A stretch of DNA of 64,000 bases from Agromyces archimandritae (GTDB lineage: Bacteria; Actinomycetota; Actinomycetes; Actinomycetales; Microbacteriaceae): positions 2,666,001-2,730,000 of the forward strand of contig NZ_CP071696.1 in assembly GCF_018024495.1 (NCBI RefSeq). Direction: 5' to 3'. Shown here one piece after another: positions 181-41,852 of this stretch. Made by a program: the position numbers and the translations under genes. Within the stretch, counting starts at the first letter, position 1. Each line of letters begins with the position of its first letter. The notes below the pieces were generated by a model. It ran no database searches and was not told where the DNA came from. It saw only the letters and a program-made list of their open reading frames with translations.

Positions 181-3290
<3,110 letters not shown>

Positions 3291-3332
3291 CATTCATCAG
3301 TGTTTGCAAAAGGCTTGATGGGTGGCATTGGT

Positions 3333-16251: not shown

Positions 16252-16257
16252 CCCTTC

Positions 16258-16263
16258 AGGCTA
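16258..16263 (-). promoter_or_regulatory. -10 element for sdaA
   Basis: TAGCCT on the minus strand, six nt before the GTG start at 16251. Confidence 0.55.
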
Positions 16264-16373
16264 CGTCCGCGGGCGCGCACGGAAGCCGCGCATCGTCGCA
16301 GATTCCTGCGCCGATCAGGGCCGGCGCGCATCCGAACCGCACGATCTGCGCGCGCGACTATCGTTGATCCGTC

Positions 16374-26642: not shown

Positions 26643-26780
26643 GTCTCCATCATCGTGGATGCCCGGGCGCGGCCGCCCCCGTCACGGCAGCCGGACTCGC
26701 GCGACATCCTGCCGCGCCGCGTCCTGCCCAGGGCCTGCCCAGAGGCGGCGGCTAACCTGGTGGGCAACCGGCATCCCCGG

Positions 26781-26833
26781 TTCCGGACGAGGGCACCCAG
26801 TACCCGGCACGCGACAAGACTGGCGATGGAGGA
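26781..26833 (+). ncRNA. Guanidine-III (ykkC-III) riboswitch
   Basis: The compact pseudoknot consensus is visible: CCGGACGAGG (26783-26792), TACCCGG (26801-26807) and GACAAGACTGGCG (26813-26825). The CCAG at 26797-26800 can pair with CTGG at 26820-26823, and the two CCGG blocks belong to the second helix. The Shine-Dalgarno GGAGG (26828-26832) of the exporter gene directly abuts the pseudoknot, so guanidinium binding should free or expose it. Position and downstream gene match the known class. Confidence 0.85.
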
Positions 26834-26839
26834 ATCGTC

Positions 26840-27163
26840 ATGTCGTGGATCGTGCTCATCGTCTCCGGAGTGCTCGAAGCCGTCTGGGCGACCGCACTCG
26901 GCAAGTCCGAGGGCTTCACGAGACTCTGGCCCTCGGTCGTCTTCTTCGCCGCGCTCGCCGCGAGCATGGGCGGCCTCGCCTTCGCGATGCGCGAGATCCC
27001 GACCGGCACCGCCTACGCCGTCTGGGTCGGCATCGGCGCGGCCCTCACCGTCGTCTGGGCGATGGCCGCCGGCGACACCGAGGTGTCATGGGTGAAGATC
27101 CTGCTGCTCATGGGCCTCGTCGGCTGCATCGTCGGCCTGAAGCTCGTCGACACCGGGCACTGA
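26840..27163 (+). CDS. gdx: Small multidrug resistance-type guanidinium exporter
   Basis: 107 residues, four transmembrane helices, SMR family, Gdx (formerly SugE) subgroup. The essential proton/substrate-binding Glu13 sits in SGVLEAVWATALGKSEGFTR, and GTAYAVWVGIGAALTV is the Gdx signature in helix 3. It works as an antiparallel dimer that exchanges guanidinium for protons. The riboswitch just upstream fixes the substrate assignment. The 3' end overlaps by 78 nt the end of the convergent last gene of the RiPP operon. Confidence 0.93.
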   Translation: MSWIVLIVSGVLEAVWATALGKSEGFTRLWPSVVFFAALAASMGGLAFAMREIPTGTAYAVWVGIGAALTVVWAMAAGDTEVSWVKILLLMGLVGCIVGLKLVDTGH

Positions 27164-27673
27164 GGCGGGAGCGGCCCGCGCAGCCCGCGCCGCCCGCGCG
27201 AGCACGATCGCATACGCGAGGCACGCCCCCGAGGCGGCCGCCCCCGCGAGCGGCCACACGGTCGGTAGCGCTCCGGCCGACCACAGCCAGGCCGCGACCG
27301 TCGCCGCGAGCAGGCAGACGCCGAGCCAGGCGTCCAGGGGCCGGCGGATGCTCGCGCCGAGCACGAGCACGTGCACCGTGACCGCCGAAAGCACGATCGG
27401 CAGGGCCGGCCACCAGACCCCGGTGACGGCGCCGAGCACGAGCGCGGCGGCCAGGGCGACGCCCTCGAGCGCCGCGGTGACGGCGATGAGCCGCACGCCG
27501 AGCGGCCCCGGGGCGCGGGCACGACCCCCGAACGACGCCTGGACGCCGAGGCCCACGGCGAGCACCCCGGCGCCGAGGGCGACGGCCGCCAGCGCCGTCC
27601 ACGGCGACCCGGCGACGAGGAGCGTCGCCGCGTAGAGCACCGCGTAGGCGGCGAGCAGCCGGTGCGGGTTCAC
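27086..27673 (-). CDS. RiPP cluster: small membrane protein
   Basis: 195 residues with about six transmembrane segments, each Leu/Ala/Val-rich (for example AAYAVLYAATLLVAG and WLGVCLLAATVAAWLW), and a charged C-terminal tail. I recognise no family. It starts with a GTG whose GTGA overlaps the stop of YcaO-2 by 3-4 nt, so it is coupled to the biosynthetic operon. A self-protection or export-helper role is inferred from position only. The tail runs 78 nt into the opposite strand of gdx. Confidence 0.7.
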   Translation of the reverse strand: MNPHRLLAAYAVLYAATLLVAGSPWTALAAVALGAGVLAVGLGVQASFGGRARAPGPLGVRLIAVTAALEGVALAAALVLGAVTGVWWPALPIVLSAVTVHVLVLGASIRRPLDAWLGVCLLAATVAAWLWSAGALPTVWPLAGAAASGACLAYAIVLARAARAARAAPASVPGVDELQADDAADEAHEQQDLHP

Positions 27674-29421
27674 GAGAACGGGTGCGGCAGACGCCGCGGT
27701 TCGGGCTCGAAGCCGAGCAGTTCGCGTGCGAAGCGGGCCGGGGCGGTGGATGCCGCGGCGCGCTGATTGCCCCAGCCGAAGTCGAGCTGCGAGAGGCCGG
27801 GGGCGATCACGGCGACCGTCTCCAGGCCGAGTTCGCGTTCGAAGGCCGCGGTCTGCACGCGGGCGAAGGTTTCGACGCCGCGCGCTGCGAGCGCCCCGAC
27901 GAGGCGGGCGCGCACGGCATCCGCACCCGAAACCGCATCGGCGCCCCAGCTCTCGTCGACATGGGCCCGCACGGCCTCCTCGAACGCGACGGCCCGGCCG
28001 GTGCCGGCGAGCTCCGCGTAATCGGCCGGGCCGCCGGCCGCGGCCAGCAGGGGGTGATCGTCGATGCCGTGCACGAGCGCGGGGTCGGCGAGCAGCGCCG
28101 CCGCACGTTCCGGTTCGGCGCGGATCGCCTGCTCGCGGTCGGGGGCGTAGGAGACGGCCTCGGCGAGAGCGCGTTCGGCGGCGACGGCCGGCACCGGGTG
28201 GCATGCGGCCCCGATCGAACGGATCGCGCCCGTGTCGACGCAGGCGACGAAGACGGGCAGGCCGAGCGGCGTGCGCAACAGCCCGAGCTCGGGCTTCCAG
28301 CCGAGCAGGCCCACCCGCCGCCGGAGCGGTGCGAAGCGCGCGCCCGGGTCGATCGGGATCGCCGGAACCCGGCCGTACCAGGAGTTCACGAACGCGTCGC
28401 GCTCGATGAGTTCGAGGAGCCCGAAGAGGGCAGCCTCGCCCGTCGTCGACCCCGTCGCACAGCCCGAGGAGGTGCCGAGGCCCCACCGCGATCGCGCGAC
28501 CGGCGCCCCGTAGTGCACGAGCTCGCGCGGCACCCACACCGGCTCGCCGGTGACGAGCGAGCGCGCCCGCACCCACTCGTGCGGCTCGGCGGGGTCGTAG
28601 CGGGAGCCGCCGTGCCGGAAGAAGGCCTCGGGGTACGCGTCGAAGTCGTCGGGGGTGAGCACCCGCCCGGGTAGGCCGGCGCCCGGCGCGACCGTGACGG
28701 TGCCCTCGAGCTGCAAACCGCCGACGAGGCGCTCGATGCCCTCCACGAGGGCCGCGATGCGGGAGGTGCGGAACGATTCGGCATGCCCCGACCAGGTGAG
28801 GCGGCGCACGAGGCTGCCGTTCCACGCCGGCGACGAACCGGAGGCCGGGGCGAGCGTCGGCCAGCCGATCTCCGGGTTCGGCTCGCCGCCGAGGCGGGCC
28901 GCGAGGCCGTTGACGAGGCCAGCCGACTCGAGCGGCCCGGCGAGCTCGTCGAGCCGTCTGGCACGGAGCGGATCGCCGCCCGGCGCGGGAGCGCCGTCCG
29001 GGGCGGCACTCCCGATACGGGGCGGATCGGCATCCGCACCCGGATCATGCGAGACGACGAGCCCGTCGCTGCCGAGCCGCAGCCGGGCGCGACGCACATG
29101 CGCGCTCACCCGGTCGACCTCCCACACGTGCGCCGCTCCGGCATCCACCGCGTCGGCGAACGCCTGCAGGGCCTCGAGCTGGGCCCGGCCCGCGCCGACC
29201 CCGACGAGCGCGGTCGAGCCGGCATCCACCGCCTCGGTGTCGTGCATCGCAGCCTCCCCCTGATGCACCGGCCGCGTGCGCAGCCACTGGGCACGCAGCT
29301 CGGCGCGCATGCCGGCATCCGCCCCGGCGAACCCGGCCGCCGCCACGAGCGCCGTGGCAGACGTCAGCCACGCCCGCGACCCGGCGGCAGACTCCGCCTC
29401 CCAGATGCCGTGCACCGTCAC
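27670..29421 (-). CDS. RiPP cluster: YcaO-2 cyclodehydratase-like protein
   Basis: 583 residues. Residues about 1-200 are a variable N domain. The YcaO ATP-grasp-like core follows: SRIAALVEGIERLVGG, the SSGCATGSTTGEAALFGLLELIERDAF stretch with the conserved Glu/Arg residues that bind Mg-ATP, and an end in RRLPHPFS, the Pro-rich C-terminus found in azoline-forming YcaO proteins. It activates backbone amides so Cys, Ser or Thr can cyclise to azolines. It lies apart from YcaO-1, after the exporter. The GTG at 29421 overlaps the permease stop (ATGTGA). It has no Cys-rich zinc region, unlike YcaO-1. Confidence 0.85.
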   Translation of the reverse strand: MTVHGIWEAESAAGSRAWLTSATALVAAAGFAGADAGMRAELRAQWLRTRPVHQGEAAMHDTEAVDAGSTALVGVGAGRAQLEALQAFADAVDAGAAHVWEVDRVSAHVRRARLRLGSDGLVVSHDPGADADPPRIGSAAPDGAPAPGGDPLRARRLDELAGPLESAGLVNGLAARLGGEPNPEIGWPTLAPASGSSPAWNGSLVRRLTWSGHAESFRTSRIAALVEGIERLVGGLQLEGTVTVAPGAGLPGRVLTPDDFDAYPEAFFRHGGSRYDPAEPHEWVRARSLVTGEPVWVPRELVHYGAPVARSRWGLGTSSGCATGSTTGEAALFGLLELIERDAFVNSWYGRVPAIPIDPGARFAPLRRRVGLLGWKPELGLLRTPLGLPVFVACVDTGAIRSIGAACHPVPAVAAERALAEAVSYAPDREQAIRAEPERAAALLADPALVHGIDDHPLLAAAGGPADYAELAGTGRAVAFEEAVRAHVDESWGADAVSGADAVRARLVGALAARGVETFARVQTAAFERELGLETVAVIAPGLSQLDFGWGNQRAAASTAPARFARELLGFEPEPRRLPHPFS

Positions 29422-30161
29422 ATCCAGCGCATCGTCGCACGCCCGGCCAGGAACAGCACGGCCCCCGCACCGACGAGATACGCGAGACCGAGACCGCTCG
29501 TCGCCCACTCGCCGAGACCCGTGAGCGTGAACGTGATCGCCTCGCGCATATGGTGCACCGGCGTGAACGGCGCCAGATCCTGCACCCATGCCGGCATGAA
29601 CTCCAGCGGCATCATCGCACCGCCCGCGAAGCCGAGGGGGATGACGATGATCATCGACAGCATCGTCACCGCCGTCGTCGACGGCACCGCGTTCGCCAGC
29701 AGCACGCCCAGGCAGAAGAAGAGGACGAACCCGGCCGCGATCGGCACCAGCGCGAGCGGCGCCGTGCCCGCCAGCGTCATGCCGAGCCACGGCGTCACCG
29801 CGATGCCCACGAGCAGCACCGACTGCAGCACCGCCCACAGGGAACCGACGCCCGCCTGCGCGCCGAGGATCATCGCCGGCGTCACCGGCGCCGAGCGCAG
29901 CACCCGCATCATGCCGTTCTCACGCCAGGCAGCGATATGCGAGGCGCCGGCGAAGATGCCCACGAACGCGGTGCCGAAGGCGATCACATTCGACGAGACC
30001 TCGTTGACGGAATCGCCGCCGTGCGGCGACGGCAGGCTTCCGAACGCCGTAACGAGCGCGATCAGCAGCCCGGCCGGGAACGCGAAGGTGAAGAACAGGG
30101 TCGCGAAATCGCGCAGGTCCGCGGTGAACATCACGCGCGAAAGCGCGGTGCGGGTGCTCAT
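29418..30161 (-). CDS. RiPP cluster: ABC-2 type exporter permease
   Basis: 247 residues with six membrane helices, ABC-2 family. Typical are the long cytosolic loop FVGIFAGASHIAAWRENGMMRVLRSAPVTP and the PLGFAGGAMMPLEFMPAWVQ segment before the last helices. It forms the membrane half of an exporter with the ATPase encoded just upstream (4-nt ATGA overlap). Placed directly after the precursor, it is the probable route out for the mature peptide and part of self-protection. Confidence 0.9.
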   Translation of the reverse strand: MSTRTALSRVMFTADLRDFATLFFTFAFPAGLLIALVTAFGSLPSPHGGDSVNEVSSNVIAFGTAFVGIFAGASHIAAWRENGMMRVLRSAPVTPAMILGAQAGVGSLWAVLQSVLLVGIAVTPWLGMTLAGTAPLALVPIAAGFVLFFCLGVLLANAVPSTTAVTMLSMIIVIPLGFAGGAMMPLEFMPAWVQDLAPFTPVHHMREAITFTLTGLGEWATSGLGLAYLVGAGAVLFLAGRATMRWM

Positions 30162-31075
30162 GCTTCGTAGCTCCGTCCGGTCAGGGTGAGGAAGACGTCT
30201 TCGAGGCTGCCGCCGCGCACCTGCGCGTTCGCGGTGTCGACCCCGGCGCCGGCGAGATCGGCGAAGGCGCGTGCCGTGTCGACGGTGCGGACCGTGACGC
30301 CGTCGTCGCCGACGTCGATGCCGGTCACGCTCGGCAGGCCGGCCGCCAGATCGGCCTGGTGCAGGGCGGCCGGCAACAGGATGGATACGCCGAGCCGGGC
30401 CTCGCCGATGAGTTGCGCCGGCGACTTCGTCACGAGCGTGCGGCCCCCGTCGAGGATCGTGACGACATCGCAGAGACGCTCGGCCTCTTCGAGGTAATGG
30501 GTCGTGTAGATCGTCGTCATCTCGCTGAGGTCGGCCCCGCGGAGCAGCTCGACGAGGTTGCGCCGGGCGCCGGGGTCGAGGCCCGCGGTCGGCTCGTCGA
30601 GGAAGAGCACCTCGGGTTCGTGCACGAGGGCCGAGGCGATCGCGAGGCGCTGGCGCTCGCCGCCCGAGAGCTTCTCGGCACGGGTTCGGGCGTGCGGGCC
30701 GAGGTCGAGGGCCTCCATGAGCGTGTCGATCCGCCGGTGCGAGGCGCCGAAGAGATCGGCGATCGCCTCGAGATGCTCGATCGCGGTGAGTTTCGGGAAG
30801 AACGCGGTGCGCTGCGGCTGGATGCCGACGCGCGCAAGCAGTTCGATGCTGCGCGGGCGCGGGGCGCGGCCGAGGAGGCGCACCTCGCCGCCGCTCGGCG
30901 CGCGGAAGCCGAGGAGCACGTCGAAGAGGGTGGATTTGCCGGCCCCGTTCGGGCCGATGATGCCGTGGAACGAGCCGCGTTCGACCGTGAGGTCGACGGC
31001 CTCGAGGATGCGTTTGCGGCCGATCGCGAGCGAGACGTCTCGCGCCGACGCGGCGATGGGGTCTGTGTGGGTCAT
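30158..31075 (-). CDS. RiPP cluster: ABC exporter ATPase
   Basis: 305 residues. Walker A GPNGAGKST (41-49), signature LSGGERQR, Walker B VLFLDEPTAGLDP, then the switch His in YTTHYLEEAE. The C-terminal extension after residue 220 is the DrrA-like regulatory part common in ABC-2 drug and bacteriocin exporters. The ATG at 31075 has an AGAGAGAG purine run just upstream; the longer start at 31168 would read back through the hairpin and is rejected. Confidence 0.92.
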   Translation of the reverse strand: MTHTDPIAASARDVSLAIGRKRILEAVDLTVERGSFHGIIGPNGAGKSTLFDVLLGFRAPSGGEVRLLGRAPRPRSIELLARVGIQPQRTAFFPKLTAIEHLEAIADLFGASHRRIDTLMEALDLGPHARTRAEKLSGGERQRLAIASALVHEPEVLFLDEPTAGLDPGARRNLVELLRGADLSEMTTIYTTHYLEEAERLCDVVTILDGGRTLVTKSPAQLIGEARLGVSILLPAALHQADLAAGLPSVTGIDVGDDGVTVRTVDTARAFADLAGAGVDTANAQVRGGSLEDVFLTLTGRSYEA

Positions 31076-31091
31076 TGCGCTCTCTCTGTTG

Positions 31092-31119
31092 CCGGGCCGG
31101 GTGCGAACACCCGGCCCGG
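31092..31119 (-). terminator. Hairpin between precursor and exporter genes
   Basis: A perfect 12-bp GC stem (arms 31092-31103 and 31108-31119) with a 4-nt loop. It lies in the 178-bp gap after the precursor gene. No T-run follows on the minus strand, so it looks like a partial terminator or a 3' stabiliser that would keep precursor mRNA above the level of the downstream genes. Confidence 0.7.
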
Positions 31120-31253
31120 GTCGTACTGGGTTCGCGGTTACCGCGTGCGACGCGACCGGTTCCCGCACGGGCGGGTGCGCGATAGCTTCGACACGGTGGT
31201 CCTTTCACCGCCGAGGGGGCTGACGCGATCACCCCGCGTCGGCCCCCGCCTGA

Positions 31254-31439
31254 TCACGCGGTCGCGCAGGACGACGTCGAGGTGCAGCACGAGGTGCACG
31301 TCGACGAACACGAGGACGACGACGACGAGGAGCACGTCGACCCGAAGGCCATCTCCGAGTAGTCGACGTAGTCCTTGACCTCGAACGTCTCGGCCTCGAA
31401 GGCGTCGAGCTCCGCCGCGAGGAGCGACATGTTCTTCAT
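31254..31439 (-). CDS. RiPP precursor peptide (azole / thiazolylpeptide type)
   Basis: 61 residues. Leader about 1-33: MKNMSLLAAELDAFEAETF, then an acidic FEVKDYVDYSEM stretch typical of azole-forming and thiopeptide leaders. Core about 34-61: 28 residues of which 14 are Ser, 6 Thr, 6 Cys (positions 36, 44, 48, 51, 52, 58) and 2 Ala, including a run of seven Ser at 37-43. The leader's LDAF/FEVKDY face is the likely docking site for the E1-like protein and the dehydratase. A strong ribosome-binding site, AGAAAGGA, lies at 31446-31453. Cleavage probably falls near Gly33-Ser34, by inference. Met4 is an alternative start. Confidence 0.9.
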   Translation of the reverse strand: MKNMSLLAAELDAFEAETFEVKDYVDYSEMAFGSTCSSSSSSSCSSTCTSCCTSTSSCATA

Positions 31440-31486
31440 GGTGGTTCCTTTCTGTGTGTGCGGATGCCGCGGGGCCGGGATCGGCC

Positions 31487-32560
31487 TCACGGCAGTACCG
31501 ACCGGATGGCCGGCACGCTGAGCGCCGCCGTCGCCAGAACGGAGGCGGCGAGCAAGAACGGGTAGGCCCGGATGACGGTCTTCGCCGCCCCGGGCAGGGC
31601 GCGCGGGATCGAAGACGGCCGTACGAGCGCGCGGAATGCGACGGCCTGCACCTGATCGACCGAGCCGGCGACCTCGAGCAGACGCGTCGCATCCGTATTG
31701 GGGAAGAACGAGAGCGACAGCCAGTTCACGGCCGCTCCGAGCACGACCGCGGCGGCGGCGGCCAGGCCGGCAGGGCCGGCCGGATCGGCGGCGAACACGG
31801 CCGCGGGCACGAGCATCGCCGCGAGCGAGACGAGCGGCCCGGCGGCGACCACGCGCGCCCGTCGCCCGGGGGAGAGGAGGGCGAGGCCGGCCAGTTGCGT
31901 GTTCGGCATCGGCACGACCCCGAGCATCGTGATCGAGAGCCGTGCGGCTCGGCCCGACAGGCGGCGGAACACGGCGGCGTGGGCGGCCTCGTGCGCCCAC
32001 GTGACCGCGCCCGTCCACGCAACGGCCGCGAGGATCGCCGCGACGAGCCAGGCGCCGGCGGCACCGCTCGTGACGGCCGCCCACGCGGCGGGCAGCGCGA
32101 ACACGGCGGCCGCGATGCCGGCGGCCGCCGCGACGCCGAGCACCGCCATCGCCGGGGCCGCGGCGAGCATCCCGAGCGGGTCGCGTCGCCTGGCCGCGCC
32201 GGCCCAGACCTCCGGCCGGGTCGCCGGGGCCGTGGCGGCGTCGCGGTCGGCGCGGGCGACGCCGGCGGTCTCGACCGCGAAGGGCCGCTCCAGCAGCCCG
32301 TGCATCACGAAACCGTTCAGGATCTGCGTGAGCGCCGCCGGCGGCAGCGGCGTGCCCTGCCCGGCGAGTTCGGCGGCGATCGCGCCGGGGGACCGTTCGC
32401 CGTCGACGAGCTCCAGCACCATGCGCTCCCGCAGGCCGAGCGTCAGGATGCGCTCGTGGCCGTCGCAGGAGGCGTCGGTGACCATGCGCGCACCGTCCCA
32501 GCGGGCCGGCCCGACGCGGAGCCCCGCCGCCGGCGCCGGCCGCCACTCGCCGCCGCTCAT
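31487..32560 (-). CDS. RiPP cluster: M50-type membrane metalloprotease with PqqD-like head
   Basis: 357 residues. Residues about 35-100 look like a winged-helix peptide-recognition (PqqD/RRE-like) domain: LRERMVLELVDGERSPG and LTQILNGFVMHGLLE. Then come about six membrane helices carrying the zinc motif HEAAH (in WAHEAAHAAVFRRL) and, later, FFPNTDATRLLE. The latter matches the second site-2-protease signature (N-x-x-P-x-x-D), which supplies the third ligand. A leader peptidase bound to the membrane is the natural inference, since no other protease is in the cluster. ATGA overlap with the upstream gene; 47 nt before the precursor. Confidence 0.82.
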   Translation of the reverse strand: MSGGEWRPAPAAGLRVGPARWDGARMVTDASCDGHERILTLGLRERMVLELVDGERSPGAIAAELAGQGTPLPPAALTQILNGFVMHGLLERPFAVETAGVARADRDAATAPATRPEVWAGAARRRDPLGMLAAAPAMAVLGVAAAAGIAAAVFALPAAWAAVTSGAAGAWLVAAILAAVAWTGAVTWAHEAAHAAVFRRLSGRAARLSITMLGVVPMPNTQLAGLALLSPGRRARVVAAGPLVSLAAMLVPAAVFAADPAGPAGLAAAAAVVLGAAVNWLSLSFFPNTDATRLLEVAGSVDQVQAVAFRALVRPSSIPRALPGAAKTVIRAYPFLLAASVLATAALSVPAIRSVLP

Positions 32561-33624
32561 CGCGCGCCGCCCATCGCCTCGGCGATCTGGAACGCGATGA
32601 ACGCCTCGTCGGCGACCGACACCATCATCCGGTTGTTCGTCATATGGATGAGGGAGTGCGCGAGCGACCACGATGCCGCCGTCGCGCTCTCGGCGAGGCG
32701 GACGCCGTCGTCGTAGGCGAAGGTGAGGCCGGGGCCGCGATGCGCCTCGCGGATGTCGGCGGCGACGCGCGCGTTCATCCGGCCCCAGTCGGCGAGCCAC
32801 GACGGCAGGGCGTCGAAGTCCGCGCGCGCTGCGGCATCCATCAGCGGAGGGATGCGTTCGGCCATGGCCCGCACCGTGCCCGCATGCTCCCGGCGACCCG
32901 CGTCGGCCGTGTACACGGCGCCTTGCCCGTACCCGGCGACCCAGCGCCGGTGGTAGGCGACGAAGAAGTCGTGGACGAGCTCGCGATCGCCGCCGAGCAG
33001 GCACGCGGCGGTGAGGAAGGTCAGCTGGCTCGCCACGCCCAAGAGGATGGTGCGCACGTCGAGATTGCCGAGGCGCATGAGCCGGGCCGCCTGCGCCGTC
33101 GACTCGACGAAGTGCCGTTCGGCGATGAGCATCCCGGTCGGGCCGCCGTACCGCGACCATTCGCGCTCGTACGGGCGGCGGTGCACGGAGTTGTTCGGCA
33201 TGAACCGAGGCCGGCCCGCCGCATCGAAGTAGCGCGGCCGGTCGGCCTCGGTGAACTCGCCCGCGAACAGCCGGTCGTAGAAGCCGTTGTCGGTGAGCTC
33301 GGTCATCGGGTGCAGCGACGGGGAGGCCGCGAGGTACGCCTCGATCTCGCGATGCACCCGGTCGTCGACGGCCTGCTCGGGCACCCCGTACGGCACGCGC
33401 ACCCGCAGGCGCACATGGCTGCCCTCGAGCCAGTAGTTGATGGTGAAGTACTCGGTGGCGACGCCGTCGGCGACGAGGGCGTCGGCCAGCGGCAGCAGGC
33501 ATTCCGAGAGCAGCACGATCGGCGCGCCGCCGTAGAACACGTGGTACGCCTGCCAGCGGTGGCCGGCGTCGAGTTCGCGTTCGCGCGCGATGCGTGCGGC
33601 TGCGGCGGGCGGGGCGAGGGTCAT
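32557..33624 (-). CDS. RiPP cluster: thiopeptide-type LanB C-terminal domain protein
   Basis: 355 residues of the lantibiotic-dehydratase C-terminal family (thiopeptide-type bacteriocin biosynthesis domain). The N-terminal pattern WQAYHVFYGG, then TEYFTINYWLEGSHVRLRVRV, matches the family's conserved WxxYxxYY and YWxxGxHxRLR blocks. In split systems such a protein does one of two jobs. It either removes glutamate from glutamylated Ser/Thr to give dehydroamino acids, or joins two dehydroalanines into the pyridine ring of a thiopeptide. Only one copy is present, directly coupled (ATGA) to the LanB gene, which favours the elimination role. Confidence 0.82.
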   Translation of the reverse strand: MTLAPPAAAARIARERELDAGHRWQAYHVFYGGAPIVLLSECLLPLADALVADGVATEYFTINYWLEGSHVRLRVRVPYGVPEQAVDDRVHREIEAYLAASPSLHPMTELTDNGFYDRLFAGEFTEADRPRYFDAAGRPRFMPNNSVHRRPYEREWSRYGGPTGMLIAERHFVESTAQAARLMRLGNLDVRTILLGVASQLTFLTAACLLGGDRELVHDFFVAYHRRWVAGYGQGAVYTADAGRREHAGTVRAMAERIPPLMDAAARADFDALPSWLADWGRMNARVAADIREAHRGPGLTFAYDDGVRLAESATAASWSLAHSLIHMTNNRMMVSVADEAFIAFQIAEAMGGAR

Positions 33625-36272
33625 GCGGTCTCCTCCTCGGTGAGCACGGCGGTGACCATCGACTCGGCGACATGCGCGGCGCCGTCGACGAGGATCGTGG
33701 CCGTATCGGGATGGGGCAGCGCCTCGACGATCTCGAGCGAGGTGCCCGGCTCTGCCGCCCGCAACCGGCTGTGCAGGTTCGAGACGGCGACGATGAGCGT
33801 GACGTCGAAGAAGAACGGCTTCTGCCGGCGGCCCTCGCCGAGCAGGCGCAGATACACCCGCTCCGGGATGCCGTGGCGCGCCCAGAACCGCAGCCACTCC
33901 GCGTATCCGGCGGCGGTGAGCGGGTCGGCGCTCGGCAGATCGGCGGCGGCGAGGAGCACGGCAGCGCGCGAGACGACGACGCCGGCCATGAGCATCCGCG
34001 GGCGGACGACGAGCTCGCCCGGCTCCGGCCGCTCGGGGTGCAACTCGGCGGGTTTGCGGCTGAGCGTCGCCGACGGCGTGAACAGCGAGAGCACCTGATG
34101 CGTCTTCGGCGTCGCCGCCGGCACGAGGTACCCCGCATATTCGGGGTGCACCGTCATGCCGCTCGCACGGTCGACGAGCACGGCCCGGCCCTCGGAGAGG
34201 CGGGCCTCGAGGCCGGCCGGGTCGATCGCGCCGGCCGCGCCGGTGGGCGGGTCGCCCGGCACCACGATGGATCGCGACAGCAGCCGACCGTGCAGGTTGA
34301 GATTCGTGAAGGCCGCGCCGCCGCCGAGTTCGGCGAGCACGACCCCGTGCGCCTCAGCCGTGCGTTCGAGGCCGGCCGTGAACGAAGCCGCAGCCCCGTC
34401 GAGGGCGTGCGCGAAGCGGGAGACGTGGAAGCCGACGCCGCCGAAGCAGTCGTTCAGGACGACGGCCGGCTCGCCGGCCCCACCCGCCTGCACGAGCAGG
34501 TTCGCGGCGCGGAACGCCCCGTGCATCCGCGGCGCCGTCTCGAACACGGCCGCCCCGCCTACTTCCGCACCCTGGCCGGCGAAGCCCGCCGCGACATCCG
34601 CACCCGACAACGGCATGCGCGCCGTCTGCGCGCGGAGCACGTCGACGAGCCGCCGGCGGGCCGCCTCCCACCGCCACGCCCCGCCCCAGCGCAGCCACGG
34701 GTCGTCGGCGAGCGCATCGTCGGGGATGCCGGTCGTGTCGTACGCGAGGAAGGAGTCGAGCAACTCGCTCGAGAAGCCGCGCACGAGCGGGACGACCGGG
34801 GCGGTGCCGCCGGCCCGCTCGAGGTAGCCGGCCAGCAGCGCCCGGCGCACATGCGATTCGTCGAGCAGGTCGACGAAGCGCACGAGCCGGACGAGCCCGT
34901 CACCGTCCAGGGACGGCGCCGGGGCGTCGACGCCGACCGCGCCGCGCACCACATCCTCGTACACGACCGAACGCGGCAGCCCGGCGTCGAGACCGGCCGT
35001 GTCGTAGAGCTCGCGCACCCGTTCCCGCACCGCCGTGATCGCGGCGACCCGCTCGTGCCCGGTGGCCGCACGCGCCACACGCTCCGCATCCGCGAGGTAT
35101 GCGCGCATCCGCTCGGCAAGCTCCGCACCCCGCACCGAGGAGGCCGCGAGCGGGGCGATGACCTCGGTTCCGTCGGCCCCGCCCAGCGCATCGACCGCGA
35201 GCGCCGGAACGACCACGACGCCGAGCCGGATGAACGAGAGCGCGAGCCGCTCCGCCCGCGCGGCCCCGAGGCCCGTGTGCCGGTCGATGCCGGCCACGAG
35301 CTCGTCGAATCGCATCGGCGCATCCCCGATGACGGACGCGACCAGCGCCGGCACGAGCCCGACACCGATCTCGACCTCCGACTCGGTGCAGTTCGCGTAG
35401 TCGTCGCGCGTGGCCAGGTCTTTGAACACCCATGTGGTGCGGTCGGTGCGGATCGACCCGTCGGGCTGCGCCCGCAGGTGCGGGCTGCGCCGCACCTCGA
35501 GGCCGGCGATCGCGTCCGGGTCCTCGGCGAGGGCGTTCAGCACCCGGGCGACGGGGTGGATCGACCATCGGGAGCGTCGGATGCTCCCGGTCGACCCGGC
35601 AGCGGGCGCGCCGGCCCGCGGGAAGGCCACCGGCCCCAGGCTCGAGAACGGCGTCGTCTTCGCCGCGGCCCGCAGCAGATACGACAGCACGGAGCGTTCG
35701 ACGCGTTTGCCTCTCCGGTCGACGGCGTCGATGCGCGCCCCGTAGCGGTCGAGCCCGGCGATCAGCTCGGGCGAGGCGATCGCGAGCCCCAGCCGGAACG
35801 ATTCGTCGCAGGCCGCGAGCAGACGACGGCGCTCCGCATCGAGCAGGCCCGCGAACGCCGCGTCGAGCTCCGGTTCGAAGGTGAGCCAGATCGCGAGCTC
35901 GCCGGCGGCATCGCCGAGGGCGTCATCGACCGCGGCCCGCGTCGACCGCCCGACGGAGGCCAGCGCGGCGCTCGCCGCGGCGCGGTCGAGGGCGTAGAGG
36001 GCGCGACGGAACCGCACCAGGCGCCGCCGGTCGCCGTCTGCCGCGTCGAGGCCGCCGATCACCCCGTGCAGCGCCTCGCTCAGGCGCTCGCGGCCGGAGA
36101 CGAGGCGGGCGAGGGCGCGGCGGTGCCGGGCGACGGCATCCCGGTGCCGCTCGTCGCCGAGTCCGTCGATCGCGGCGACGGGCAGGCCGCCCAGCCGCAG
36201 CTGCGGGTGCGGATGCAGGCTCGCGCGCACCGCCGGAACGGTGCGGTCCGGTGCGTCGGCGGTGAGGCTCAC
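33621..36272 (-). CDS. RiPP cluster: LanB-type dehydratase (glutamylation domain)
   Basis: 883 residues, the LanB N-terminal family: tRNA-Glu-dependent glutamylation of Ser/Thr in the precursor. The RSVLSYLLRAAAKTTPFSSLGPVAF block equals the family's RxxxRxxxKxTPF signature. It has the length of stand-alone glutamylation proteins in goadsporin and thiopeptide clusters and lacks the C-terminal elimination domain, which is encoded by the next gene. The GTG start at 36272 overlaps the dehydrogenase stop (GTGA). The longer frame upstream is only a shadow of that gene. Confidence 0.9.
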   Translation of the reverse strand: MSLTADAPDRTVPAVRASLHPHPQLRLGGLPVAAIDGLGDERHRDAVARHRRALARLVSGRERLSEALHGVIGGLDAADGDRRRLVRFRRALYALDRAAASAALASVGRSTRAAVDDALGDAAGELAIWLTFEPELDAAFAGLLDAERRRLLAACDESFRLGLAIASPELIAGLDRYGARIDAVDRRGKRVERSVLSYLLRAAAKTTPFSSLGPVAFPRAGAPAAGSTGSIRRSRWSIHPVARVLNALAEDPDAIAGLEVRRSPHLRAQPDGSIRTDRTTWVFKDLATRDDYANCTESEVEIGVGLVPALVASVIGDAPMRFDELVAGIDRHTGLGAARAERLALSFIRLGVVVVPALAVDALGGADGTEVIAPLAASSVRGAELAERMRAYLADAERVARAATGHERVAAITAVRERVRELYDTAGLDAGLPRSVVYEDVVRGAVGVDAPAPSLDGDGLVRLVRFVDLLDESHVRRALLAGYLERAGGTAPVVPLVRGFSSELLDSFLAYDTTGIPDDALADDPWLRWGGAWRWEAARRRLVDVLRAQTARMPLSGADVAAGFAGQGAEVGGAAVFETAPRMHGAFRAANLLVQAGGAGEPAVVLNDCFGGVGFHVSRFAHALDGAAASFTAGLERTAEAHGVVLAELGGGAAFTNLNLHGRLLSRSIVVPGDPPTGAAGAIDPAGLEARLSEGRAVLVDRASGMTVHPEYAGYLVPAATPKTHQVLSLFTPSATLSRKPAELHPERPEPGELVVRPRMLMAGVVVSRAAVLLAAADLPSADPLTAAGYAEWLRFWARHGIPERVYLRLLGEGRRQKPFFFDVTLIVAVSNLHSRLRAAEPGTSLEIVEALPHPDTATILVDGAAHVAESMVTAVLTEEETA

Positions 36273-37900
36273 CGGCGGCCTCCGATCCTCGGGCCGGATG
36301 CGGCTGCGATCGTCGTCGCGGAGACGTCGAGCCGCCCGGCGCGCGGATCGTCGCGGCCGAGCATGATCATGAGCAGCGGCGAGGTTTCGCCGAGGTCGAG
36401 GCCGGCGTGTTCGGCGTGCGCCCTGGCATCGAAGCCGAGCGCCGTGCCCGAGCCGATACCCGCCTCCGTCGCGGCCGCGAGGAGCGCCTGGCAGCCGGCG
36501 CCGATCGCGGCGTTCGCGAGCCGATAGCCGCGCACGCCGTCGCGTTCGGCGAGTTCGAAGACGTTCGCGCACAGGACGACGGTGGCCGCCGCCCGGCGCC
36601 CGTCGTAGTTCTGCAGGAAGTAGGTGGAGGCGAGGAACGCGTCCTGCGGTTCGGGGTCCAGCCGCTCGAATCGGCCGTCGCGCCAGAGGTGCAGGCCGGC
36701 CGGGAGGCCGTCGACGGCCGTCGCCGAGACGAGGGCATCGAAGCGGACCGTGCCGCCGGCGAGCGCGCGGGCGGCCGCCGCGCCCGCTTCGAGGGCGGCT
36801 CGGACGGCGCCCGCTGCGACGGCTTCTCCCGTGAAACGCCCGAAGCTCGTCTCGCGGGCGGCGAGCGCCGCGATGCGCGCGGCCCGATCGGCGTCGGGGG
36901 TGAGTACGGGGGCGAGCGTGCGGGCGACGGCCCGGGTCGGGGGCGGGGATGCGGCATGGTCGCGTTGCAGGGCGAGCGTCGTCGGGAAGCGTTGCGGGCG
37001 GTGCGCGCCGCGGCGGATCGGGTAGGCGCCGGCTGCGGGCACGGGCACAGGCACGGGCAGGCCGGCGGCCGCTGCCGGCGCCCCGCGGTCCGGCCGGGTC
37101 GCCGGGGCACCGCCTGCGGCATCCGGAGCCGGCCAGGCCTGCACCGCGTACACGCCGTCGTCGCGGGCGTCGATGCCGAGCACGGCGGCCAGCGCCGGCT
37201 CGTCGAGCGTCATGTTCCAGGTGCCGGCGACGTCATCGCCCACGAGGCGGTGGAAGGTGCCGAAGAGCGTTCCGGCATCCATCGCCGTGGCCTGGTAGGC
37301 GAAATCGTGGTACTTGAACGCCGACTGCCAGTAGTCGATCGTCGTGACGAGGTAGCGGTGCGCGGCGCGTTCGTCGCCGATCGCCGCCCGCACCTCCTCG
37401 GTGCGGTCGTGGCCGTCGAGCTGCTCCCAGCCGTTGTGCACGTGCGAATAGCGGTGGATGCCGGGCGCGAGGTCGCCGCCGGCGCCCTGCACGAGCCACA
37501 GATCGGCCGTGTAGCGGCCGCCGCCGGACGCCGTGGTGCGCCCCCACTTCGCCGAACGGGCCAGGGTGTGCACCTCGGGCCGGTCGTTGAGGTTGACGCT
37601 CAGGCGGAGGGCGGCGATGCCGTCGGCGATGTGGCAGAGGTCGGTGATGGTCTGCAGCGTCGCGGCCGGGCGGTCGGCGAGGAGGCCTCGGCCGGCCTCG
37701 GGCAGCGGCAGCAGGCGGATGGGCGCGTCGGGGGCGAAGCCGCCGGTGAGGGGCGCGTGATCCCAGTCGACCGGCTGCTCGTCGCCCGGCATGCCGTCGG
37801 CGACGCGGTTCAGGATGAGGGACGCGTAGGCCGTCGCGGCGGTGCCGGGCGGCACGGCGTCCCACCGGGTCGGGCGGAGGCCGGCCGGGGCGTCTGACAT
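36269..37900 (-). CDS. RiPP cluster: SagB-type FMN-dependent azoline dehydrogenase
   Basis: 543 residues with two nitroreductase-like halves. The first half has TIDYWQSAFKYHDFAYQATAMDAGTL, the second RETSFGRFTGEAV, FLQNYDGRRAAATVVL and LANAAIGAGCQALLAAA; the later helices match SagB-family flavoenzymes. It oxidises thiazolines and oxazolines to aromatic azoles using FMN. A long Ala/Pro linker (about 275-330) joins the halves. It starts 31 nt after the YcaO-1 stop and overlaps the LanB start. Double-length SagB proteins are common in thiopeptide and azole clusters. Confidence 0.87.
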   Translation of the reverse strand: MSDAPAGLRPTRWDAVPPGTAATAYASLILNRVADGMPGDEQPVDWDHAPLTGGFAPDAPIRLLPLPEAGRGLLADRPAATLQTITDLCHIADGIAALRLSVNLNDRPEVHTLARSAKWGRTTASGGGRYTADLWLVQGAGGDLAPGIHRYSHVHNGWEQLDGHDRTEEVRAAIGDERAAHRYLVTTIDYWQSAFKYHDFAYQATAMDAGTLFGTFHRLVGDDVAGTWNMTLDEPALAAVLGIDARDDGVYAVQAWPAPDAAGGAPATRPDRGAPAAAAGLPVPVPVPAAGAYPIRRGAHRPQRFPTTLALQRDHAASPPPTRAVARTLAPVLTPDADRAARIAALAARETSFGRFTGEAVAAGAVRAALEAGAAAARALAGGTVRFDALVSATAVDGLPAGLHLWRDGRFERLDPEPQDAFLASTYFLQNYDGRRAAATVVLCANVFELAERDGVRGYRLANAAIGAGCQALLAAATEAGIGSGTALGFDARAHAEHAGLDLGETSPLLMIMLGRDDPRAGRLDVSATTIAAASGPRIGGRR

Positions 37901-37931
37901 GTCTCGCCTTTCGGATCGGGTGGAACTCGGG

Positions 37932-39698
37932 TCACGGGAAGGGGTGGGGCACGAGGTGCAGCGGTTCGGGGTCGCCGCGTGCGCCGCCTGCCGCGCGGGC
38001 GCGGTCGAGCAGCCGCGGCATGGCGAGGGCGCGCTGCTTCGGCCAGCCGAAGTCGATCGGCAGCAGCCCTGGCACGACGGTCTTCCAGCATGCGATCCCG
38101 TGCCGGCGCGACAGGGAGGTCGCCGCGTCGACGGCGAAGGCTTCGAAGCCGGCGGCGTCGATCGCGTCGAGCACGGCGGCGAGGTCGTCGTCGACGTGCC
38201 GGCCGGGGTGCGGATGCCGGGCGAGCGCGGCGAGCGGGCGCCGCTCGGCGGGGCGGCCCGCGGAGTCGAGCCAGACGCCGAGGTAGGGGCGGGCGGCCGG
38301 GTGCGCGAAGAGGTCGGCGTGGTCTTCCATGGCGCGCACCGCGGTGAAGTCGGCGAGCATCCGTTCGATCTCGTCTCGCCGCTGCCGCAGCCGGAGATCC
38401 ACGACCTGATAGTCGGAGGCGACCTCGACGACGGCGGCGGCCATCGCCCGTTCCGGGTCGGGATGGGCTCCGGCGCCGACGCATGCCGACCCGGTCGGGC
38501 TCTCGCAGACCGCGATGACGGTGGGGATACCGATGCCGGTCTCGCTCGCGTCGAAGCAGCGGATGCGCTGCCCGCAGAGCTCGGCGCGCCGCAGGAACCA
38601 GCGCGTTTCGGCATCCCGCACGCTCGCGAGCTCGATTTCGGGCAGCGGCACGCCGCCGTACCAGGCGATGAGGAAGGCGTCGCGTTCGATGAGTTCGAGC
38701 AGGCCGAACAGTTGGGCTTCGCGATCGGTGCCGCCGACGGCGCAGCCGTTCGAGGACTCCTGCACGAAGGGGGCGTCGGTCAGTTCGGCGTCGTAGGCGA
38801 CGAGCCGGGTCGGCAGGGCGACGGCCTCGCCGTTGCGCAGGGCGACGCCCGGGGTCCAGGTCCGCACCTCCGGGGCGGGCAGGAGCCATCCGTCGCCGGG
38901 AACGCCGAAGGCGTCGAGGCCGACTCGCCGCGCCCCGGCCGGCGGCTCGTCGAGCATCGCGGCCGGTGCCGGGCTCGCCGCACCGAGGCGTTCGATGCCC
39001 TCGAGCAGCCCGAGCCGGGTCGCGTCGATCGTGCGGCTGCGATGCCCGCCCCAGGGTCTGGTGTACTGGCCGTACGGGCCGGTCTTCATGAAGAACCCCG
39101 ACGATTTGGCGGTGATGTGGCTCGCGAGGTCGATGTCGATGCCAGCCGAGAGGGGGCCTGCGACAGGGTTGGCGAGGTCGCGTTCGCGGTGGCCGGCGGC
39201 GAAGGATGCGGCGAGCGGGCGAGAGCGGTAGGCGCCCGGAGCACCGGGCTGCGGCGGGGCGGCCGCCGCGTCGGTCGTCGCCTCGGCCGCCGCCTCGGCC
39301 GCCGCCCGCTCGCAGTGCTCGAGGCAGACGAAGTCGACCCGTTCGGTCGCCAGGGTGCGACGGTCGACGGCGAGCGGCCCGGGCAGGGGCAGTGCGGCGG
39401 CCGCGTCGGCCAGGGCTGCCAGGAATGGATGCCGGGCGCCGACGTCGACGGCTTCGCGATGCCGGCTGCGCAGTTGGAAATCGTCCATGTCGCGCATGCG
39501 TGCGAGCGCGCAGTCGGTGCAGACGTCCGCGTCCGCGATCACGAGGTAGCGGTCGCCGAGCAGCCGCCGGGGGCGGTGCCGGTGCGGATCGTGCCGGCGC
39601 GGATCAGGCCGGTCCGGATCGGGCCGGTCCGGATCGGGGCGGCGCGGATCGTGCTGGTGGTGCCGGTGCTCGAGGTGGTGCCGGTCGCCGCCCGTCAT
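37932..39698 (-). CDS. RiPP cluster: YcaO-1 cyclodehydratase with Cys-rich N domain
   Basis: 588 residues. Residues 7-45 are a low-complexity Asp/Pro/Arg/His tract with repeated DPDRP-like units. Two cysteine pairs follow, CTDC (60-63) and CLEHC (125-129), resembling the zinc site that normally ends the E1-like partner domain. From about 200 comes the YcaO core: LGLLEGIERLGA, then SSNGCAVGGTDREAQLF and GLLELIERDAFLIAWY with the ATP-binding Glu/Arg set, ending VPHPFP, the catalytic Pro-rich C-terminus. It should form azolines on the precursor together with the leader-binding protein encoded 3 nt upstream. Confidence 0.9.
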   Translation of the reverse strand: MTGGDRHHLEHRHHQHDPRRPDPDRPDPDRPDPRRHDPHRHRPRRLLGDRYLVIADADVCTDCALARMRDMDDFQLRSRHREAVDVGARHPFLAALADAAAALPLPGPLAVDRRTLATERVDFVCLEHCERAAAEAAAEATTDAAAAPPQPGAPGAYRSRPLAASFAAGHRERDLANPVAGPLSAGIDIDLASHITAKSSGFFMKTGPYGQYTRPWGGHRSRTIDATRLGLLEGIERLGAASPAPAAMLDEPPAGARRVGLDAFGVPGDGWLLPAPEVRTWTPGVALRNGEAVALPTRLVAYDAELTDAPFVQESSNGCAVGGTDREAQLFGLLELIERDAFLIAWYGGVPLPEIELASVRDAETRWFLRRAELCGQRIRCFDASETGIGIPTVIAVCESPTGSACVGAGAHPDPERAMAAAVVEVASDYQVVDLRLRQRRDEIERMLADFTAVRAMEDHADLFAHPAARPYLGVWLDSAGRPAERRPLAALARHPHPGRHVDDDLAAVLDAIDAAGFEAFAVDAATSLSRRHGIACWKTVVPGLLPIDFGWPKQRALAMPRLLDRARAAGGARGDPEPLHLVPHPFP

Positions 39699-39701
39699 CG
39701 C

Positions 39702-41594
39702 TCAGTCGATACAGGAGAGCGCGGCGCGAAGGCCGAGCGAGTCGAAGGCCGCGGAGGCGACGGTGACCGCGTGCATCCGCCCGGGCAGTTCGGCGGGGGC
39801 ATCGGCGGCGGCGAAGCGTCGCGGGTCGAGGTGCGGCAGGGCCCGCATCGTCGGCGTCGCCGGGTCGGGCGGCGACGGGTCCTGGTGGGCGCCGAGCAGT
39901 TCGGTGACGGCGGCGATCGTTGCGGCGCCGCGGGTGCGTCGGGCGGCGGCCTCCCAGCGGAACACGCCTCCCGTCCGTTCGGCGGCGAGCACGCCGTGCC
40001 AGTCGTCGACGGTGCCGAGGTCGAAGAGGGCGAGGGCGGCATCCACCGGCGCAGAGTCCCGCAGGAACGACGCGGCCGCCCCGTCGTCGTCCCAGTCGAA
40101 CGGCACCGCACCGTGCGTGACGGCGGCCGCCAGCAGGGCCTCGACGGCGGAGCTGCGGCAGGCGCGTTCGAGGGCGTGCTCCTCGCGCAGTCCGACGCCG
40201 GCGCCGAAGGGGGCGCGTGGATGCCGGCCGTCGTGGTTCGCGGAGGAGCGTCGGAACAGGCGGGCGGCCGGGGTCGTGATCGTGCCGCCGTCTCGGCGTC
40301 GCAGCTCGATGCCGGCGGACTGCGATCCGGCCGGGCCCGATTCGAGCTCGGACACGAGCTCGGCGTAGACCCGGGCGAGGGCTTCGATGCGGGCGTCGGC
40401 GGCCGTCCAGAGGCTCGCGGCCCGCTCCTCGCGCCCGTCGGCGAGCCGGGCAACGCCGATCTTCAACGGCAGCTGCATGACGTCCTCGTCGTCGAAGCCG
40501 GCCACACGCGAACTCGCCGGGTCGGCGAGCGCGAGCCAGGCGCCGACCTCCTCGGCGAGGGAGTCGTCGATCGTGCCCGTCTCGCCGAAGCCTTCCGCAG
40601 GCGGCGCCGTCGGGGTGAGCTCGAGGGGTCGGCCGGCCGGATGCGGGTGCACGCGGTGCCCGCGGGTTTCGCCGGTGGCCGCGTCGAGCTCGATGGCGTG
40701 CCGGGCGGTCTCGGGGGCGAGGGCGCCGGAGAGGCCCTTGAAGGCCTCGTATGCGAGGAGCGCCCCGAGCATCCGCTGCACGGGTTCGCTGCCGGTGCGC
40801 GGGCCGAGCACCGGGTGCCCGGCCGCGGCCGTCAGCCAGGTCTCTTCGAGGCCGCCGAGGGCGCCGCCCGCTTCGAGGGCGGCAAGGGCGTCGCCCCAGT
40901 CCGGCAGTGCCGGGTCGTCGTCGCCCCAGGGGTGCGGCAGCGCCCACAGTCGTTCGCCGCCGGGCACGACGGCGAGCACGGTGCGCCGGTCGATGCGGCG
41001 GCCCTCTGCGGCGAACCAGGCGAGCGCGGCCGGCGACGGCGTGACGATGAGGTGCTCCGCCCCGGCGAGCTCCGCGGCGTCGGCGAGGCGGGTGGATGCC
41101 GGGGCCGCGAAGTCATCGTCGAACGGCACGACGACGGTGCCCGCGCTGCCGTTGGCGACGAGGTTCTCGGCGATCGAACGGGCCATCGGCGTCGCCCCGA
41201 GGATGTGCACGGGTGCGACCCGGAACCGGGCGAACGCCGCGTTCGGCTCGTCGCTGTACTGCGCGAGGAACGCGATCTGCTCGGCGAAGGTTTCGGCGAC
41301 GCCCGGATCGAGCGCGGCGAAGTCGGCATCGGGGATCCACCGCACGAAGCCGTGGTCGGCCAAGGGGGTGAGGATCGACTCGACCTTCGCCCACTGCTCG
41401 GCGGTGAAGCCCGATTCGAGCTGGCCGATCGTCATCGAACCGTCGAGGAACGGGTGGATCATCCGGAACAGCGCGTAGGCGCGCGGGCCGACGATCTCGA
41501 ACCCCGAGACCGGGTTCGAGATGCGCACCCCCGTGCCCGAGTCGGCGAAGAGCGTGTCGCGGCGCAACCACGGTCTGACGTCCGTCGCGGGCAT
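39702..41594 (-). CDS. RiPP cluster: leader-binding E1-like (ocin-ThiF type) protein
   Basis: 630 residues. The N-terminal 90 residues look like an RRE winged helix (GFEIVGPRAYALFRMIHPFLDG, AEQWAKVESILTPLADHGFVR) that binds the precursor leader. A Rossmann-like E1 part follows (VHILGATPMARSIAENLVANG), then a C-terminal half with HPRAPFGAGVGLREEHALERA. Such proteins deliver the precursor to YcaO, as in thiopeptide clusters. It is the first gene of the operon. The ATG at 41594 has GGAGG eight nt upstream; the frame to 41669 is rejected because it would cover the promoter. Confidence 0.85.
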   Translation of the reverse strand: MPATDVRPWLRRDTLFADSGTGVRISNPVSGFEIVGPRAYALFRMIHPFLDGSMTIGQLESGFTAEQWAKVESILTPLADHGFVRWIPDADFAALDPGVAETFAEQIAFLAQYSDEPNAAFARFRVAPVHILGATPMARSIAENLVANGSAGTVVVPFDDDFAAPASTRLADAAELAGAEHLIVTPSPAALAWFAAEGRRIDRRTVLAVVPGGERLWALPHPWGDDDPALPDWGDALAALEAGGALGGLEETWLTAAAGHPVLGPRTGSEPVQRMLGALLAYEAFKGLSGALAPETARHAIELDAATGETRGHRVHPHPAGRPLELTPTAPPAEGFGETGTIDDSLAEEVGAWLALADPASSRVAGFDDEDVMQLPLKIGVARLADGREERAASLWTAADARIEALARVYAELVSELESGPAGSQSAGIELRRRDGGTITTPAARLFRRSSANHDGRHPRAPFGAGVGLREEHALERACRSSAVEALLAAAVTHGAVPFDWDDDGAAASFLRDSAPVDAALALFDLGTVDDWHGVLAAERTGGVFRWEAAARRTRGAATIAAVTELLGAHQDPSPPDPATPTMRALPHLDPRRFAAADAPAELPGRMHAVTVASAAFDSLGLRAALSCID

Positions 41595-41639
41595 TCCGAA
41601 CCTCCGAGTTGTCTGACAAGGGGGATGGTGCTGTCTGGG

Positions 41640-41669
41640 AAGATAGCGCACGCAACCGGCCCGTGTCAC
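41640..41669 (-). promoter_or_regulatory. Candidate promoter of the RiPP operon
   Basis: On the minus strand, GTGACA (41664-41669) and TATCTT (41640-41645) are 18 bp apart, leaving a leader of about 40 nt with a ribosome-binding site. The -35 overlaps one arm of a small inverted repeat (GTGTCA 41663-41668 / TGACAC 41683-41688) that could be an operator. The gap 41595-41852 contains no gene I can support. Confidence 0.45.
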
Positions 41670-41852
41670 CGGTTCGCGGGTATGACACGCCGACCCGCGC
41701 CCTGCCGGTCATGAAGCGTTCACCGCGGGGGCGGGATGCGTCATCGTCGGTTCATCGACGGAGCCGCATATGTATCGGATCATCTGCGACGATCGTCGGC
41801 TGCAACCGGTCTCAGCCGGGCGGATCTTCGACGCCGAGTGGATGCCGTGGGC

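Follow-up and report, generated by a model that had tools for sequence, protein, structure and literature searches.

What kind of peptide is made by an eleven-gene cluster of Agromyces archimandritae whose precursor bears a database name suggestive of a thiopeptide? The window analysed here is a stretch of 64,000 nucleotides (assembly GCF_018024495.1, contig NZ_CP071696.1, positions 2,666,001 to 2,730,000 of the forward strand) from a genome of 3.45 Mb in one contig. The original prediction, made from the letters of the window, had proposed azoles and dehydroamino acids and a thiopeptide or goadsporin-like product. Comparison with related loci indicates that the product is probably a secreted, non-macrocyclic ribosomally synthesized and post-translationally modified peptide (RiPP) with azoles and dehydroamino acids, built by an E1-like protein, two old and distinct YcaO proteins, a SagB-like dehydrogenase and a split LanB. 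The enzyme set, with intact YcaO and elimination motifs, backs the proposed chemistry, and the easy label 'thiopeptide', suggested by the precursor's database name, is corrected below. In gene order the cluster consists of:

39702..41594, minus strand: E1-like / ocin-ThiF-like leader-binding scaffold protein, 630 aa; TIGR03693 match at residues 11-154
37932..39698, minus strand: YcaO-1 cyclodehydratase, 588 aa; PF02624 181.5 bits, CxxC-type N-terminal region, C-terminus PHPFP
36269..37900, minus strand: SagB-like azoline dehydrogenase, 543 aa; TIGR03605 and PF00881
33621..36272, minus strand: LanB glutamylation-type protein, 883 aa; PF04738 75.3 bits
32557..33624, minus strand: LanB C-domain protein of the glutamate-elimination type, 355 aa; PF14028 108 bits, motifs GSHVRLRVR and HMTNNR
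31487..32560, minus strand: RiPP recognition element (RRE)-like domain fused to a site-2-type M50 intramembrane protease, 357 aa; proposed leader peptidase
31254..31439, minus strand: precursor peptide, 61 aa; NF033400 and TIGR03892
30158..31075, minus strand: ATP-binding cassette (ABC) transporter ATPase, DrrA-like, proposed export; TIGR01188 189.3 bits, below the cut-off of 312.45
29418..30161, minus strand: ABC-2 type permease, DrrB/SagH-like, proposed export; PF01061 57.5 bits, TIGR01247 45.6 bits
27670..29421, minus strand: YcaO-2 cyclodehydratase, 583 aa; PF02624 175.7 bits, C-terminus PHPFS
27086..27673, minus strand: small membrane protein, 195 aa; candidate immunity protein or export helper

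With start codons picked by ribosome-binding sites and frame overlap, all eleven frames are open across 27086-41594, and GGAGG, resembling a ribosome-binding site, precedes the ATG at 41594 of the E1-like gene. Spacing is -4 nt at six of the ten junctions (SagB/LanB, LanB/LanB C-domain, LanB C-domain/M50, ABC/ABC, ABC/YcaO-2 and YcaO-2/membrane protein) and +3 (E1/YcaO-1), +31 (YcaO-1/SagB), +47 (M50/precursor) and +178 (precursor/ABC) at the others. The original prediction of eleven genes in one direction and in this order, mostly with 4-nt overlaps, was thus borne out, and the complete order recurs in five relatives (L010, L016, L017, L019 and L071). Both YcaOs pass the Pfam cut-off and are the genome's two YcaO matches; the Lant_dehydr_N and Lant_dehydr_C matches also exceed their Pfam cut-offs. 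As a single sequence LanB had no match in the PDB at E<=0.001; a family profile was needed, and it matched 6ec7 (TbtB) at 4.1e-70 and 9jhq (a goadsporin biosynthetic protein) at 2e-34. The E1-like protein is 41% identical to its copy in G273, a genome of another genus of the same family.

The precursor is genuine, scoring 49.8 bits against NF033400 (cut-off 30) and 31.8 bits against TIGR03892 (cut-off 25). Its predicted leader ends in ...SEMAFG and is followed by a predicted core of 28 residues, STCSSSSSSSCSSTCTSCCTSTSSCATA, with 14 Ser, 6 Thr, 6 Cys and 2 Ala, that is, 26 of 28 residues Ser, Thr or Cys. No convincing further copy was found elsewhere in the genome (second match E 0.38). Compared with the window, the core of the first G273 precursor (L010) is identical, with synonymous changes in 15 of 28 codons and no non-synonymous ones. 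In the Microbacterium loci L017 and L019, themselves near copies, 11 codons differ synonymously and none otherwise; L016 (Corynebacterium sp. MSK297) has nine and one non-synonymous, and the two copies of L018 (Brevibacterium) have 15 and one, and 10 and three, respectively. Synonymous changes in such number are not what a recently transferred precursor would show, but are expected under selection on the peptide. In L010, L016, L017 and L019 the modifying enzymes and protease are ∼38–59% identical to those of the window, the ABC proteins 51–67% and the membrane protein 31–45%; for the three loci with the identical core, the enzymes span ∼40–59%. With enzymes that drifted apart to about half identity around an unchanged core, strong selection in several genera seems to act on the molecule itself; judged by its codons, the core is under purifying selection in relatives. 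Recurrence in five other genomes, together with a core that changed only synonymously in three, is more than chance.

Two precursor copies are present in L010, L017, L018 and L019 and four in Actinomyces oris (L044). Substitutions lie at positions 12-20 and 28 of the core; the precursors of A. oris and G868 (L071) have length changes. The A. oris locus is a plasmid of strain WVU627 carrying a related cluster with its four precursor genes at 15219-16290; both core ends are kept (STCSSS..., ...SSTSSCAT) and the lengths differ. A bolder picture, which we offer tentatively and think may well be wrong, is a 28-residue ladder: two cyclodehydratases that prefer different residues would turn nearly the whole backbone into azoles alternating with dehydroamino acids, and an intramembrane protease with its own leader-recognition domain would free the peptide. 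Such a polyconjugated peptide would be near-identical in Microbacterium, Corynebacterium, Brevibacterium and the window's genus, and would have shorter versions in one mouth Actinomyces.

The two YcaOs differ in descent. In a quick tree of 35 YcaOs, made without bootstrap, window YcaO-1 grouped with ten others (Shimodaira–Hasegawa-like approximate likelihood ratio test, SH-aLRT, 99) and YcaO-2 with nine others (100). Both clades include Corynebacterium silvaticum (L020), whose rows were flagged as long branches, so that its placement is less sure. A CxxC-type N-terminal region, which we read as the mark of a C-type domain, occurs in 10 of 11 YcaO-1 types and one of ten YcaO-2 types; window YcaO-2 has no Cys across the N-terminal region examined. 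The C-termini are PHPFP (10/11) or PHPLP (1/11) in YcaO-1 types and HPFS (9/10) or HPFA (1/10) in YcaO-2 types. As the two clades are kept side by side across families, with CxxC mostly on one side, the pair is old and unequal. YcaO-1 matched LynD and TruD in the PDB and has the motifs EGIER, ELIERD and CxxC. Two Glu-rich motifs, presumably the ATP site, were detected in both window YcaOs; one of the patterns missed YcaO-2 of L073 and L074 and the other missed both L020 proteins. In Streptomyces-type clusters (L021, L076-L078) the YcaO pair lies outside both clades. L021, L077 and L078 (and L076) combine the enzyme logic of the window cluster with another well-conserved core, STSCSSTSTCSSTTSTTSC and variants; their precursor lies on the strand opposite the enzymes.

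Maturation would begin with the E1-like protein binding the leader and handing the core to the YcaOs. Core Cys, and some Ser/Thr, would become thiazoles and (methyl)oxazoles, with the YcaOs sharing the labour, perhaps Cys against Ser/Thr, and with SagB oxidising azolines to azoles. Further Ser/Thr would be glutamylated by LanB using Glu-tRNA, and the LanB C-domain protein would eliminate glutamate to give dehydroalanine (Dha) or dehydrobutyrine (Dhb); azole and dehydroamino-acid formation may follow in this order. The M50 protein scored 27.6 bits as a daptide-type metalloprotease (cut-off 300) and 16.5 bits against Peptidase_M50 (cut-off 27.2), and its predicted fold combines an RRE-like part with a site-2 protease. 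This candidate leader peptidase looks like an RRE-type domain joined to a site-2-type intramembrane protease; it would grip the leader by the RRE-like domain and cut in or at the membrane, probably after the Gly of ...AFG. The ABC pair, both members of which score under NCBIfam cut-offs, would export the product, which might have antibacterial action, such as the inhibition of Gram-positive relatives put forward in the original prediction. The 195-aa membrane protein has seven predicted helices (predicted local distance difference test, pLDDT, 77.8) and is present in five relatives at 25–45% identity; it had no match in family scans and none in Foldseek at E<=0.001. Two testable questions of enzymology follow: why two YcaOs are kept together, and whether leader removal in RiPPs can be the task of a site-2-type protease carrying an RRE-like domain.

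In searches with the LanB C-domain protein among 60 genus genomes, only the window's own gave a strong match (one other, 1.8e-4). Each of the family, order and phylum sets samples a larger group, and the sets all overlap. Two of 398 family genomes matched strongly (the own genome and G273; four more at 5e-9 to 9e-4). With the profile, 396 order genomes yielded the own genome and four others (G868, G974, G909 and G836) at 8.3e-104 or better, G1026 at 2e-71 and seven weaker ones. In 396 phylum genomes, the own genome and four of a single family matched at 7.4e-54 or better, and two weakly. When named genomes were scanned with just two short peptide patterns, eight loci came up: Corynebacterium sp. 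MSK297, two Microbacterium, a Brevibacterium metagenome-assembled genome, C. silvaticum, Streptomyces sp. H39-S7, Virgisporangium ochraceum and a distant one. Three plasmid records matched, from Actinomyces oris (44%) and two Streptomyces (35 and 33%). Incomplete or rearranged relatives include L018, with the first six genes and two precursors up to the contig end; L044, where a 192-aa hypothetical protein stands in place of the membrane protein, for which no match was found, and the ABC genes lie apart; and L073 and L074, with YcaO-1 inverted and no membrane-protein match found.

Several observations weigh against an azole and dehydroamino-acid peptide of the non-thiopeptide kind. The E1-like protein reaches only 36.8 bits against TIGR03693 (cut-off 561.9), a weak match to an ocin_ThiF-like N-terminus; the SagB-like protein scores 74.5 bits against TIGR03605, below its cut-off of 78.4 (38.5 bits against PF00881, Nitroreductase, are above the cut-off of 23.5); and the RRE/PqqD-like fold match of the M50 protein's N-terminus drew no Foldseek hit at E<=0.001. 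A run of seven Ser in the core might stay partly unmodified. The precursor falls in NCBI 'thiazolylpeptide-type bacteriocin' families, and the best PDB hit of the LanB C-domain family profile is TsrE (1.6e-7), a thiopeptide enzyme, ahead of the full LanB 9g04 and of TbtD (7.9e-6). The TsrE and TbtD alignments end ahead of the C-terminal motif, which 9g04 reaches only by a 0.7-bit piece; as a single sequence the LanB C-domain protein matched only two engineered proteins (E 0.02).

These last points raise the possibility of a true thiopeptide, in which the LanB C-domain protein, or an enzyme encoded elsewhere, would also perform the [4+2] cycloaddition to a pyridine macrocycle. The leader family is thiopeptide-like, the cluster has the YcaO, dehydrogenase and split LanB of thiopeptide clusters, and the protein weakly matches the pyridine synthase model NF045556 (58.6 bits, cut-off 325). 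Loci with a pyridine synthase above 325 bits carry a second, weaker PF14028 neighbour. We built a tree from eight such synthase/neighbour pairs (eight of ten matches over the cut-off, one per genome), 11 mid-scorers (from 12 loci, one removed by a 240-aa filter) and 11 window-type proteins. A 100/100 split separated window-type proteins and neighbours from pyridine synthases and mid-scorers. HxRxR and Hx(2-4)NR, which from NisB work we take to be elimination motifs, occur together in all 11 window-type proteins and all eight neighbours and in none of the eight synthases or 11 mid-scorers, of which two and six have one motif alone; the neighbours were taken as eliminases by their place in pyridine-synthase clusters. 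Searching the whole genome with NF045556 returned a single match, the LanB C-domain protein itself (54.6 bits, model positions 1-255), in the range of the eight neighbours (52.5-96.4 bits) and not of the synthases (370.6-501.9 bits), and no second PF14028 or pyridine synthase candidate was found in cluster or genome at the sensitivity of NF045556 and of the LanB C-domain protein and profile searches. Second precursor copies also vary around Ser17, which is preceded by Ala in L010, L017 and L019 and followed by Thr in L017 and L019; in thiopeptides, such a Ser is flanked by azoles. Neither the cluster nor, within the sensitivity of these searches, the genome yielded a [4+2] pyridine/piperidine synthase of the TbtD/PbtD/TclM type, the enzyme that defines thiopeptides. 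By that test the cluster is not a thiopeptide cluster; we reject that identity on tree, motifs and genome-wide search, and a cycloaddition hidden in the eliminase or elsewhere is distinctly improbable. The thiopeptide half of the original prediction therefore fell, and the goadsporin-like half held as a way of working. Its remark that the core resembles no known thiopeptide core fits this result, although the precursor sits in the families named above.

A streptolysin S (SLS)-like cytolysin, that is, an exported polyazole peptide damaging membranes rather than hitting an intracellular target, concerns activity and is compatible with the azole and dehydroamino-acid chemistry. In its favour are the density of Ser/Thr/Cys in the core and the permease's weak likeness to SagH (29.4 bits, cut-off 450); family scans also showed no ribosome-protecting or signal recognition particle (SRP) gene among the eleven. 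The 23S rRNA base that we take to be A1067 is A, a further point for it; self-resistance via altered 23S rRNA was also considered, and this base gives no sign of it (methylation is invisible in sequence). The precursor, however, belongs to another family, and a split LanB is not known from SLS clusters, which leaves this activity unlikely, though worth keeping in mind. A class I lanthipeptide-like product, with core Cys attacking Dha/Dhb to form lanthionines and azoles minor, would suit the six Cys, the many Ser/Thr and the split LanB; yet no LanC cyclase was found among the eleven genes, and two YcaOs and a dehydrogenase would be superfluous, so we disfavour this reading and hold it to be highly improbable. 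That the cluster is silent or decaying in this strain would agree with its lone strong match within the genus and its insertion at a variable site, but eleven open frames, intact catalytic motifs, a promoter-like site upstream of the first gene and the purifying selection on the core in relatives make decay improbable. An exported azole and dehydroamino-acid peptide accommodates the evidence best.

The variable site lies between sugE and yeiH, which share one stretch in six genus genomes, 50 bp apart in G054 and ∼2.8–4.0 kb in the others. In the window this gap (27163 to 41853) is occupied by the cluster, which thus looks like a gain. The promoter-like site is at 41669-41640 (one; 0.2 expected by chance), and one terminator-like site lies on the opposite strand (2.5 expected). 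Other features of the window are:

180-3604, plus strand: complete 23S and 5S rRNA genes
26762-27163, plus strand: guanidine-III riboswitch (51.2 bits) directly before a small multidrug resistance (SMR, SugE-like) efflux gene, adjoining the cluster
31076..31253, minus strand: precursor-ABC spacer, 178 nt, with a 12-bp perfect hairpin

Riboswitch and sugE form an ordinary guanidine-exporter arrangement, and sugE is present in all six genus stretches. A 23-nt direct repeat (27344-27366 and 41955-41977, 96% identical) lies near the cluster ends, 14.6 kb apart; several of similar size in the region mean that it may be chance. The window's 23S rRNA is 95% identical to that of G054 and 92% to those of G273 and M. 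testaceum NS220, which by itself makes a host among the Microbacteriaceae probable. A hairpin in the spacer after the precursor beat all 100 shuffles in seven of eight loci and is possibly an attenuator. The window is not a clear case: its z is -2.0, against -1.7 and -0.9 for coding controls, and 3 of 100 shuffles were as low; by longest perfect stem only four of eight loci, the window included, stand out. The spacer also holds, at ∼31165-31220 (minus strand), a second ribosome-binding site and a start resembling the precursor's. The 18-codon frame that begins there may be what is left of a second precursor, given that several relatives carry two.

Among known systems, thiopeptides (thiomuracin, berninamycin) share with the window the F-protein/YcaO/SagB/split LanB logic and a related leader family, but no pyridine synthase was found for the window cluster; their cores are much shorter than the window core. 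Goadsporin, too, has a different core. Goadsporin and the spongiicolazolicins resemble the window in azoles plus Dha on a linear chain and in a split LanB (PMC5303826, PMC10676384); goadsporin receives azoles first, then is acted on by GodF plus an eliminase, and has one cyclodehydratase GodD, the acetyltransferase GodH and the peptidase-ABC protein GodB (PMC5303826). The window instead has two YcaOs and an RRE-M50 protease, and neither an N-acetyltransferase nor a peptidase-type ABC exporter was found among the eleven genes; it has the azole enzymes and split LanB of a goadsporin-like linear peptide, with no pyridine synthase found. Geninthiocin and berninamycin split cyclodehydratase and dehydrogenase in another way (PMC6306032). 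Dehydrazoles such as carnazolamide are likewise hypermodified with azoles and dehydroamino acids, but use a LanM-type dehydratase and long nitrile hydratase (NH)-like leaders (PMC10676384), whereas the window uses a split LanB. A Brevibacterium survey mentions linear azole-containing peptide (LAP) clusters with one or two YcaOs (PMC5719810), possibly of the same kind.

The closest kind is coryneazolisin, which the original prediction had not named, followed by goadsporin. Cox et al. (2015, PMC4603692) predicted coryneazolisins as a class of thiazole/oxazole-modified microcins (TOMMs), uncharacterised and in their judgement not macrocyclic, from loci with two D proteins and dehydratases but without a [4+2] enzyme; theirs was the one paper found to use the name, and it isolates no product. 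The window likewise has a pair of YcaO (D) proteins, of which one, by its CxxC mark, carries a C-type domain and the other stands alone, and a lanthipeptide-like dehydratase without a detected [4+2] enzyme. Its likeness to the coryneazolisin locus of C. silvaticum extends to YcaOs in the same two clades, the E1-like protein, SagB, an eliminase-type split LanB and a short precursor whose leader is related (...EVNDYVD... / ...EVKDYVD...) and whose core begins S-x-C-S-S. Unlike the window, the C. silvaticum core is interrupted by Ile and fits the coryneazolisin rule of 10 Cys/Ser/Thr, Ile and 5-7 Cys/Ser/Thr; the window core, at 28 residues, is longer, has no Ile and departs from this rule. The window enzymes are only 24–33% identical to those of that locus, where neither the RRE-M50 protease nor the membrane protein was found. 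No isolated product of this type was found in the open literature (subscription papers, supplements and MIBiG lay outside the search), and the core seems to be strongly selected in several genera. The comparison supports well that this cluster, unstudied at the bench as far as we found, is a variant, with a longer core and a protease, of a kind known in silico.

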